Part shown: piece by piece, positions 46,635 to 50,729 of the stretch
How positions within the stretch are numbered: the stretch's first letter is position 1
Layout of the letters: every line of letters starts with the position of its first letter
The notes under the pieces: generated by a model
Seen by the model: only the letters and a program-made list of their open reading frames with translations
The model's database searches: none
Told to the model about the DNA's origin: nothing
Assembly: GCA_030603495.1 (NCBI GenBank)
Contig: JAUVXR010000003.1
Location: 73,189 to 137,188 of the forward strand
Reading direction: 5' to 3'
DNA from: a bacterium
GTDB lineage: Bacteria > Armatimonadota > Zipacnadia > Zipacnadales > Zipacnadaceae
Length of the DNA stretch: 64,000 bases
Translations under genes and position numbers: made by a program

Positions 46635-48707
46635 TCAGGCGAAATAGTCGCGGAGGGGCTTGTTACGTCGGGGCTGCCGCAATTTATTGAGGGCCTTCGC
46701 TTCAATCTGCCGGATGCGCTCGCGCGTTACCTCGAAGATATGCCCGACCTCCTCCAGCGTGCGCGGGTAGCCATCTTCCAGGCCGAACCGCAACTTCAGC
46801 ACCTCGCGCTCGCGCTCGGTGAGCTGGCCCAGCAGCCTATCGAGCTGCTCGCGCAGAGCCATATTGGACGCCACATCCACCGGCGTCTCATCTTCCTCAT
46901 CGGGTACGAAGTCGCCTAGATGGCTGTCGTTTTCTTCACCGACCGGTGCTTCCAGCGAAAGCGGCTTGGGCGCAATTCGCTTAATCTCGGCGACACGCTC
47001 CATCGGCATATCTATCTCGGCGGCTACGTCCTCCAGGGTAGGCTCGCGGCCAAGCTCCTGAAGCAGCTCGCGCGACGCCTTGACCAGGCGATTGATCGTC
47101 TCAACCATGTGGACAGGCACGCGGATGATCCGGCTTTGATCGGCAATGGCACGGGAGATGGCCTGGCGTATCCACCAGGTAGCATAGGTGCTGAACTTGT
47201 AGCCTTTGCGGTAGTCGAATTTCTCAACCGCCCTCATCAGCCCAACATTGCCCTCTTGAATCAGGTCAAGAAAGCTCATCGCGGAGCGGCCAGTATACTT
47301 GCGCGCGATGCTGACCACCAAGCGCAGGTTCGCTTCGGTTAGCGACTGCACGGCATCTTCGTCTCTGACGCGCAGGCTCGCGCCATCAACACTCCCGGCA
47401 CTGACTTGTCGGCTCAAGACGACCTCAACCGGTCTACTCAGTCCAACGTTCTGCTCCCCGTCCACAGGAAAGGCCGCTTGCACCGCCAGCGTGGCTGGAT
47501 CGGCGGCCGTGGTGAAATCAATCTTGAATGGCTCCTGTAGCGGATACCCACTCGCCCCCATAATGCCCTTCTTACCCGCTTCCAGCGTCAGGGTGTAGAT
47601 CATTTGTCTGGTTAACGGATCGGCGGGGATGAAGCGTACCTCGCGGCGTTCATCGTCGTAGTGGACCTCCCCGGCTACCGGATGGTTCATGGCATCATGC
47701 ACTCGCACAGTCCGGGCCCCTACCGAACGCGGGACCAGGCGGCGGTCAAACGTGATAACCACGGGGCGAGCTACGTCGAAATCCGTGGCCCCATCTTCAG
47801 GATCAGTCTTCACGACGCGCGGTGCCGCCTTGGCACTGGTTGTGCGAAAACTGAACTTATGATTCTTGGCCAGCCGCCGGCCCTCTTCTGCCGTGGCGAC
47901 GCCTTCGGCCCTCGCGCGAACCGTCGCCGTGAACTTATTGCGATGCTTGAGCGACTTGGCTGGCCGGAAGCGCGCACGCCACGGCTGCATCTCGTCGAGG
48001 CTGACGGTGCCTGCTACTTCGCGGCCCTTGCCGTCCACTACTGTTACGACACCGGCGCGGACCGAATCGGCCGCCAGCACATCGCTGAACTCGATGACAA
48101 TGTCGCGATCAACTTCAACATCCCGTTTCCCGTGCTCGGGCAGGCTGCCGGTGACAGTTAAAGGCGCACTACCGTTGGCGGTGCGGAACGTCCAGAGGAT
48201 GTCCCGGGCCATCGGCTTAGCCGCGACGTCGCGTATGCCGTGCTCCCCGCCTCGCACGGCCACGGTATACTCGCGATCCGGGTCGCGCGCCTCCTCGGGC
48301 TCGAACCGCAGACAATTGCGCAAGCGATCGTAGACCACCCGTCCGTTGCCCTTCTGGACGCGACGTGCTATTTCGACCTCCTCGCTGGGGCTGAGCAGAG
48401 GGACCTGACCGATGCTGCGCAAGTACATCCGCACCGAGTCGTCTACCGGCACAGATTCGACGTCTTTTTCGTCCTCCAGATCGGCCTCGGCTTCCTCGGT
48501 GGCAGATTCTCCGTCGGAGCTGACATTTATGCCCGCCTTGTGCAGAATCCGGTATATATCCTCAATATCGGAGGTATCCAGGAATTCGCACTCCCCGAGC
48601 ACTTCCTGGATATCTTCGTAGGTTAGATAGCCCTGTTCCTGGCCCTTGCCAACAAGCTGCTGAACCTGTTTGAGCTCGCTGATCTCGACTGCCTCGCCCT
48701 CGGGCAA
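46635..48707 (-). CDS. rpoD: Housekeeping sigma-70 factor with Ig-like insert
   Basis: Regions 1.1 ([11 protein letters not shown]), 1.2 ([20 protein letters not shown]), 2 ([19 protein letters not shown], then [13 protein letters not shown]), 3 ([16 protein letters not shown]) and 4 ([18 protein letters not shown], then [14 protein letters not shown]) are all intact, ending in the usual LRDYF. Residues about 122-449 are not sigma sequence. They form tandem Ig-like units of the SbsA/Big_5 type, for example [19 protein letters not shown] and [20 protein letters not shown]. The flanks would join as ...[16 protein letters not shown]..., a normal sigma junction. The non-conserved region of other sigma-70 factors lies at this point but is helical. 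Directly downstream of dnaG, as usual for rpoD. 690 residues. Confidence 0.93.
47361..48344 (-). other. Ig-like (SbsA/Big_5) insert within rpoD
   Basis: The 984 bases are an exact multiple of three and contain no stop. They encode a C-terminal half unit (residues 122-178), two full units (about 182-290 and 296-400) and an N-terminal half unit (407-449), each period being about 111-114 residues. The insert starts at the G-x-V-x-Y-D strand and ends just after the R-V-x-D strand, neighbouring positions in the unit, so the two halves could complete one Ig fold and bring both ends together. No inverted repeats or intein motifs mark the edges. Confidence 0.8.
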
Positions 48708-48713
48708 CTACCT

Positions 48714-50729
48714 TCAACTCCTTTCGTCATTCTGCTCCGCGTTGTTCTGCTGCCCGGATAAGTCCTCCGGACTCTCTACCCGGTTCGTCCCCTGGATAGC
48801 TCCTGGACCTTCGAGAAAATCAAACTGGCCTTTGCCATGGAATCTAGCCGCCAGAGCAACGTACCGCTGATAGTCCGGATGATCGTGTGTGAATTCGTCG
48901 GACTTCATCAATTCAGCGATGCGCTGTTGTAACTTCTGGAAGTCCTCGACGCTATTCTCCTCAGTGACGAGGGGGCTTTCTGCGGATTGCAGCTCGTATT
49001 CCTCGCGTAGGCCTGTAACCCGCCGGTGCTTGCGCAGCTTTCGAGCACTGGCCTCAAGGAGCTCGTTCGTCAGATCATCAGGTGGCTCCGCAAGTAAGAG
49101 TTCCACGGCCCGACGGTAAGTACCTTCCTGCGCTGAGAGCTCATCGGGCACGCGCTGCGGCTCGTACTCACCATTCACCTGAAGCTGCGCCCCAATCGCT
49201 CGGGCAATAGCCTGGTGCTCAGGCGTCAGGAAATCATCCGGACACAATACCGCGAATACCCTTTCGGCAAAGTCTCTGCTCTCTAAAGCCGCGCACAACA
49301 ACTCTCGTTCCAGCCTCTCTAATATCGCGCCGCGGTATTCGACGTCCTGAACGATAGTCTCGGTGACAAAGCTGCGGTCCCGCCGGCCACTGCCCGCCGT
49401 CTTAGCCCGCCGGCGCTGGCCTTTGCTGGTGCGCCGCTGCATCTCCATGCGCAGGGCTGCCTGCATGCCTCCTACCCGCTCCGGCTGCCCCTGAGCCCAG
49501 CGGTCGGCTGCCCGCACCACGAACTCCTCGCGGCGGGTCCGATCTGGTATGTGCCGCAGTACATCTACCGCCTCCCGTGCTGCTCGCGCCAGTCCCTCGG
49601 AGCCACCGTCTCGATGACCGCCAAAGACCATCTCCAGGCGATACTCAACCAGGTCCACGGCCTGCTGGGCAAGCTGCTGAAACTGCTCGACGCCGTGTGC
49701 ACGGATGGACTGATCCGGATCAATGCCCTGGGGCAAGAGCATTACCCGGGCCTCGAGTGTGCTGCCCTCGAACAAGTCAATGTTGCGCAGCGCCGCCGCC
49801 ATCCCCGCCGCATCCGCGTCGAAGCAGAGGATAACTCGCTCAACGTACCGCCGCAGTAGCAACAGATGGTCAGCGGTCATCGCCGTGCCCAATGTTGCCA
49901 CTGCGTTCTTGAGACCAGCTTGGTGCAGGGCCAAGACGTCCGTGTACCCTTCAACCACTATCGCAGACTTCGCCGCGACCAGCGCCTGCCGACCGTGGGC
50001 CAGCGCATACAGATTGCGACTCTTGCTAAACAGCGGCGTGTCCGGCGAATTGAGGTACTTCGCCGATTCAGCCGGATCCATCGCCCGTCCCCCAAAGCCG
50101 ATCACCGCCCCCGCCGCATCGCTAATCGGAAACATTATCCGGTTGCGAAAGACGTCGTAATCGCTGCCCCGTTCGCTGCGTTTGACCAGTCCGGCTTCTC
50201 GCATCAGTTGAGCTGCAAGCCCCTTGCTGGACAAGAACTTCAGCAGCTCGTCCCACGCCTCCACAGCGAAACCCAAGCGGAATCCTGTGATCGTTTCATC
50301 AGAGAAGCCACGTTTATACAAGTAATCGAGTGCGGCTTTGCCGCCGGTGCTGCGCAGATTGTCCTCAAAGTGGCACGTCGCCGACTCCACGGCGCGGCGC
50401 AGCAGCTTGCTGCGCTCAACCCGTGCCTGCTCCCCCGGTTCAATCCGCCAAGTCAAGCCACAGCGTTCGGCGAGCCGCTCACCAGCTTCCGAGAAGCTAA
50501 TCCCTTCGATCTGTTGCAGGAACGAGAACAAGTCTCCGCCCGCCCCACAGCCGAAGCAGTGCCACAGGCCCGCCGCTGGATCAACGGACAACGATGGAGT
50601 CTTCTCCTGATGGAAAGGACACAGTGCCTTGAACCGCCGCCCGGCTCGCCTCACAGGAATGTACTGGGAGATAAGCTCGACGATGTCAATCCGTCGCTTG
50701 ATTTCTTCTTTGGTGTCTTCGATAGGCAT
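48714..50729 (-). CDS. dnaG: DNA primase
   Basis: DnaG makes RNA primers at the fork and works with DnaB. The 671-residue protein has the N-terminal zinc finger CPFHQEKTPSL ... HCFGCGAGGDLFSF, the RNA-polymerase basic domain FRNRIMFPISDAAGAVIGFGGRA (cited as a motif region near residue 205), the TOPRIM motifs IVVEGYTDVLAL and ILCFDADAAG, and a C-terminal region of helices for helicase interaction ending in a polar tail. The stop is 6 bases before the rpoD start, the classic dnaG-rpoD arrangement. Confidence 0.95.
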   Translation of the reverse strand: MPIEDTKEEIKRRIDIVELISQYIPVRRAGRRFKALCPFHQEKTPSLSVDPAAGLWHCFGCGAGGDLFSFLQQIEGISFSEAGERLAERCGLTWRIEPGEQARVERSKLLRRAVESATCHFEDNLRSTGGKAALDYLYKRGFSDETITGFRLGFAVEAWDELLKFLSSKGLAAQLMREAGLVKRSERGSDYDVFRNRIMFPISDAAGAVIGFGGRAMDPAESAKYLNSPDTPLFSKSRNLYALAHGRQALVAAKSAIVVEGYTDVLALHQAGLKNAVATLGTAMTADHLLLLRRYVERVILCFDADAAGMAAALRNIDLFEGSTLEARVMLLPQGIDPDQSIRAHGVEQFQQLAQQAVDLVEYRLEMVFGGHRDGGSEGLARAAREAVDVLRHIPDRTRREEFVVRAADRWAQGQPERVGGMQAALRMEMQRRTSKGQRRRAKTAGSGRRDRSFVTETIVQDVEYRGAILERLERELLCAALESRDFAERVFAVLCPDDFLTPEHQAIARAIGAQLQVNGEYEPQRVPDELSAQEGTYRRAVELLLAEPPDDLTNELLEASARKLRKHRRVTGLREEYELQSAESPLVTEENSVEDFQKLQQRIAELMKSDEFTHDHPDYQRYVALAARFHGKGQFDFLEGPGAIQGTNRVESPEDLSGQQNNAEQNDERS

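Follow-up and report, generated by a model that had tools for sequence, protein, structure and literature searches.

The rpoD locus and its Ig block

The window, a stretch of 64,000 nucleotides on contig JAUVXR010000003.1, stems from a draft genome of the class Zipacnadia (UBA5377 in GTDB) of the phylum Armatimonadota. Its minus strand encodes a housekeeping sigma factor next to dnaG, the usual neighbour of rpoD. The features of the locus, all on the minus strand, are listed in transcriptional order.

48714–50729, minus strand: dnaG, directly upstream of rpoD with a gap of 6 bases (TIGR01391 dnaG, 438.4 bits)
46635–48707, minus strand: rpoD, housekeeping sigma factor with the Ig block (690 amino acids, TTG start)
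48462–48671, minus strand: sigma region 1.1, residues 13–82 (PF03979, 4.7e-14)
48345–48440, minus strand: sigma region 1.2, residues 90–121 (PF00140, 3.6e-15)
47361–48344, minus strand: Ig block, residues 122–449, three Big_5 units, one of them putatively split (Pfam, profile and model evidence)
48180–48344, minus strand: putative C-terminal half of Ig0, residues 122–176, strands D to G (Big_5 profile positions 64–105)
47838–48179, minus strand: Ig1, complete Big_5, residues 177–290 (53.5 bits; CopC/PcoC fold, Z 14.4 and 13.7)
47502–47837, minus strand: Ig2, complete Big_5, residues 291–402 (61.7 bits; CopC and TssM Ig fold, Z 13.5 and 12.7)
47361–47501, minus strand: putative N-terminal half of Ig0, residues 403–449, strands A to C (Big_5 profile positions 4–42)
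47130–47360, minus strand: sigma region 2, residues 450–526 (PF04542, 7e-23)
46875–47102, minus strand: sigma region 3, residues 536–611 (PF04539, 4.4e-25)
46674–46835, minus strand: sigma region 4, residues 625–678 (PF04545, 5.1e-21)

Regions 1.1, 1.2, 2, 3 and 4 were found in this order along the protein, each above its curated Pfam cut-off, and the equivalog model for the C-terminal part of RpoD (TIGR02393 RpoD_Cterm) gave 366.1 bits against a cut-off of 354. The full-length NCBIfam models for RpoD, which represent other lineages, reached at best 486.4 bits against 555, with matches that were split by the insert. By its Pfam regions and the TIGR02393 match RpoD is a group-1 sigma-70 factor, in agreement with its initial annotation as a housekeeping sigma factor. 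The gene had also been taken for the only rpoD of the cell. Among the 11 region 2 matches in the 2.67-Mb genome, RpoD alone was located in a long frame, and the remaining matches belonged to frames of 208–274 amino acids. A second RpoD-type frame was not found in this draft of 62 contigs, and a second, uninterrupted rpoD was likewise not detected in related genomes. In this genome, which is 93.5% complete, no group-1 sigma factor other than RpoD was found. A DnaG-like frame was present upstream of rpoD in 13 of the 16 named loci checked.

The insert comprises 328 residues between sigma regions 1.2 and 2.1. The open frame runs unbroken across both joints, and residues 122–449 correspond exactly to positions 47361–48344, which confirms the proposed in-frame Ig block inside rpoD. 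Pfam searches revealed four stretches of Big_5 (PF13205) between regions 1.2 and 2, at 5.3e-39 for the protein and 7.4e-40 for the segment alone. Ig1 and Ig2 both exceeded the curated cut-off of this family, 23.6 bits. The two outer stretches matched opposite ends of the Big_5 profile: the last 47 residues of the block are similar to its start (positions 4–42) and the first approximately 57 residues to its end (positions 64–105). Tested separately, these Ig0 halves reached 17.2 and 17.8 bits; in the order in which they occur in the protein they gave 30.8 bits in two pieces; and when rejoined in natural order they were recognized as one Big_5 domain that scored 36.5 bits and ran without interruption from profile position 4 to 105. 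Four strands were predicted for each Ig0 half and eight for each full unit in both of our AlphaFold2 models (see below).

By sequence and fold, the insert is Big_5. Judged from the profile matches, it would consist of the C-terminal half of Ig0, Ig1, Ig2 and the N-terminal half of Ig0, in this order, and hence of three Ig units, one of which is circularly split. The cut in Ig0 appears to lie in the C–D loop, with the outer halves as putative complementary parts of one Ig domain. The block had initially been described as tandem Ig repeats. This held for the type of domain, for which a Big_5 pattern had already been named, but the arrangement is not a simple string, as two whole units are flanked by two apparently complementary halves.

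Apart from RpoD, no protein of the genome contained a Big_5 domain above the cut-off; one weak match (16.3 bits, in a 734-amino-acid frame) remained below it. The idea of a multi-Ig donor gene in the same genome was thus rejected at this cut-off. Within the phylum, the Big_5 proteins closest to the block are built as tandem arrays, and several of them begin with lipoprotein-like signal sequences, consistent with the earlier statement that Ig units of this type are normally secreted. Three proteins from another family of Armatimonadota (L121, L122 and L123), arrays of 4–8 Big_5 units of which two have lipobox-like starts, ranked among the non-sigma proteins most similar to the insert. When individual Ig units were placed in a tree (111 columns, 90 rows), those of Ig0 grouped together (98/84). 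This tree resolved neither the donor nor the order of the units, and it singled out no particular secreted array of the phylum as the source.

Distribution and evolution of the Ig block

A profile of the insert was used to search the genomes of the class. Matches were obtained in 43 of the 46 Zipacnadia genomes, including 22 of the 22 of good quality, and covered ten families. The three genomes without a match are 80–85% complete and lacked any RpoD in a whole-protein search too, suggesting gaps rather than losses. At each rank from genus up to class, RpoD proteins of relatives matched from end to end and lay in open frames of approximately 690 residues or more, whereas RpoD proteins from other classes of the phylum matched only from region 2 on. 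The segment between conserved anchors on either side of the insert measured 338–355 residues in the 40 RpoD proteins aligned from Zipacnadia (the query included), compared with 14–20 residues in four sigma factors from outside the class and 239 in one. Loss or shortening of the block was not found in any complete copy of the class. Among 291 genomes of the phylum searched, no RpoD with the insert was detected outside the class, where the matches were other proteins. Named records with the block are labelled as Candidatus Zipacnadia, candidate division WS1 or Armatimonadetes bins and originate from several independent projects; the scan of named genomes, by which alone the distribution beyond Armatimonadota was covered, used a narrow family alignment. 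With one exception, each genome of the class showed one RpoD-type sigma factor, compared with two or three in many of the phylum's other classes. The exception is a genome of the same genus (G002) with one complete and two partial RpoD frames (L081, L079 and L055), all of which contain the Ig block; this bin is probably mixed.

Pairwise distances of the insert and of the sigma core were strongly correlated (Mantel r 0.80; none of 2000 permutations gave a value as high), as expected if the block arrived once and was then inherited with the gene. Hence the insert, initially reported for one genome with the advice to search related ones, is indeed present in relatives, as a class-wide and, by this measure, vertically inherited feature rather than the oddity of a single genome. 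Most simply, the block would have been acquired a single time, ahead of the diversification of the class, and retained in all of the RpoD proteins found.

To describe selection on the block, dN/dS was estimated by simple Nei–Gojobori counts for the eight closest pairs. Values ranged from 0.07 to 0.31 for the insert and from 0.004 to 0.07 for the core. The mean entropy per position was 1.98 bits in the insert compared with 0.42 in regions 2–4. The block is thus under purifying selection, though much weaker than that on the core, and it evolves several-fold faster. Most of the positions of the block that are conserved in the class are positions of the Ig fold, equivalent in all three units. Polar residues conserved in one unit only are few, for example D127 and N131 in Ig0 and R256 in Ig1. 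Across the class, net charges of the block between −30 and +7 were observed. This pattern argues against a conserved DNA-binding face; it is equally compatible with a steric role, with a partner that co-evolves and with the lack of any role.

For a draft in 62 contigs it had to be considered whether the gene is a chimera produced by assembly, or a pseudogene with an intact rpoD elsewhere. This explanation is close to refuted. The same joints occur in many genomes of the class, assembled in several independent projects, and misassembly was rejected on these grounds. A pseudogene is difficult to reconcile with the lack of a second RpoD-type frame in the genome and with the purifying selection on both insert and core.

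Predicted structure and comparison with known sigma inserts

Structures were predicted with AlphaFold2. The model of the full RpoD (17 sequences) had a pLDDT of 72.6 and a pTM of 0.58, with a confident Ig block and mediocre confidence elsewhere. The model of residues 87–526, comprising region 1.2, the block and region 2, reached a pLDDT of 90.8 and a pTM of 0.83, and structural conclusions were drawn from this shorter model. In it, regions 1.2 and 2 superimposed on S. aureus sigma-A (8x6f_E) over 107 residues at 0.9 Å (Z 19.1). Ig1 and Ig2 matched the Ig folds of CopC, PcoC and TssM (Z 12.7–14.4). Thus, sigma domain 2 is predicted with confidence to fold normally around the block. From the model confidence, the strand order and the profile match we infer that the two Ig0 halves pair in space. 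Since both ends of the block would then belong to Ig0, the chain would leave and re-enter sigma at one spot, and this might be the reason why domain 2 can fold normally around an insert of this size.

E. coli sigma-70, also a primary sigma factor, is likewise interrupted by a large insertion between regions 1.2 and 2.1. This is the non-conserved region (residues 128–372; PF04546), and the shared site had been noted initially. The two insertions are unrelated by sequence: the Zipacnadia block is composed of three Big_5 units, one of them apparently split, and PF04546 gave no match to RpoD at E up to 1. An ordinary non-conserved region of the E. coli type, which had been considered as an alternative identity of the segment, is ruled out by sequence. 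A further insert between the same anchors (regions 1.2–2.1) was found in the sigma factor of another Armatimonadota class (L049, genome G053). It has a length of 239 residues, matches neither Big_5 nor any other Pfam family and is unrelated to the Zipacnadia block. The block has family and fold in common with Big_5 tandem arrays (PF13205) and with the Ig folds of CopC/PcoC and LdtMt2. The Big_5 arrays compared are whole and belong to proteins that, where their start is visible, mostly have a signal- or lipobox-like beginning, whereas the units of the block appear to include a split one and are embedded in a transcription factor of the cytoplasm.

In E. coli, the non-conserved region sits next to the DNA-loading gate, on sigma domain 2, and rotates together with region 1.2; it contacts the β′ clamp toe and affects the DNA-loading gate, promoter escape and early pausing (PMC7822876). 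The initial annotation had placed the Ig domains near the upstream edge of the promoter. From the position of the E. coli counterpart, they would lie by the gate rather than simply at that edge. The SI3–sigma arch of cyanobacteria offers a second comparison, in which a large β′ insertion meets sigma region 1.2/domain 2, seals the main cleft and stabilizes the open complex (PMC10120043). Both SI3 and the Zipacnadia block bring a large lineage-specific domain against sigma region 1.2/domain 2, but SI3 is an insertion in the β′ trigger loop that reaches sigma, while in Zipacnadia the insertion is in sigma itself.

Candidate partners in RNA polymerase were also considered. A class-specific partner at the β′ clamp toe was rejected because the helical clamp-toe extension is present throughout the phylum and so does not match the distribution of the sigma insert. 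Replacement of CarD was rejected too, as nearly all CarD-domain matches were in long frames typical of Mfd, without a difference between the inside and the outside of the class. In RpoC (L092:828–5495, minus strand; contig C5 of genome G000), an insertion of approximately 100 residues at about residues 657–766 was present in 6 of 6 class genomes compared and short or absent in 5 of 7 from other classes; no Pfam domain was assigned to it. After residue 997 of the same protein, 48–54 residues lie between anchors in the class compared with 14–19 in most others, and in the source genome this neighbourhood contains two CxxC pairs. One rpoC match (L098, contig C108 of genome G018) showed one in-frame TAG.

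Possible roles of the block in transcription initiation

Cells cannot do without the primary sigma factor, whose domain 2 both recognizes the −10 element and melts it. With the block on this domain, its position suggests that it most probably acts where its E. coli and cyanobacterial counterparts do. The reading we prefer, and to which we assign about an even chance, is a class-defining Ig version of the non-conserved region that would modulate initiation at the DNA-loading gate. Ig0 would form a foot on sigma domain 2, and Ig1 and Ig2 a rigid extension beside the gate. Through contacts with the β′ clamp or the β lobe, the block might tune the movement of clamp and gate, the stability of the open complex or promoter escape, and in this way serve as the non-conserved region of the lineage. 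It is a sigma domain new by its content at a known regulatory site. A built-in initiation factor is conceivable, albeit doubtful: a rigid Ig arm might reach the core enzyme, perhaps the class-wide β′ insertion, and set promoter opening or escape. If true, this would make an Ig domain from the stock of surface proteins a part of the basal transcription machine of bacteria.

The main rival to a modulating role at the gate is a serious one, although we think it rather unlikely. A piece of a tandem-Ig gene could have landed once at a tolerant site and been retained as a neutral insertion, and selection might now, with the same limited likelihood, only keep the block folded. The insertion would have been harmless because the ends of the block complete one Ig fold, and it would be hard to lose since its removal must be exact and in frame within an essential gene. 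Conservation concentrated on fold positions common to the three units, the wide variation in charge and the fast evolution relative to the core all fit such a history, as does the known tolerance of the site, where L049 has its unrelated insert. Less easily explained are the near-constant length over ten families, with neither loss nor shortening in any complete copy, and the few polar residues conserved in single units (D127, N131 and R256).

Ig folds are common binding scaffolds, so the block might also be a docking platform: a receptor within sigma itself that would bind a distinct regulator of the class and deliver this protein to the promoter. The differences in surface between families are compatible with a co-evolving partner, and a single RpoD-type match per class genome, compared with often two or three elsewhere, leaves room for regulation of this kind. 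On the other hand, conservation across the class extends to few residues of the surface type, and our search yielded no candidate partner. Taken together, docking appears improbable.

Returning to the Ig version of the non-conserved region, the sequence comparisons establish a real, class-wide variant of the primary sigma factor, which is apparently undescribed. An earlier description of an Ig-bearing RpoD was not found in the open-access literature searched, and the main text of the description of class UBA5377 (PMC10290634) mentions neither sigma factors nor Ig domains. A whole class of bacteria runs on an essential sigma factor whose three Ig domains are of a kind known elsewhere chiefly from exported proteins. 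This constitutes a natural experiment on the extent to which basal initiation tolerates remodelling of its machinery. The block provides a second, structurally unrelated version for comparison with the poorly understood non-conserved region. It also points to a route by which a domain may enter an essential protein without breaking it, as a split domain would keep the points of entry and exit together.
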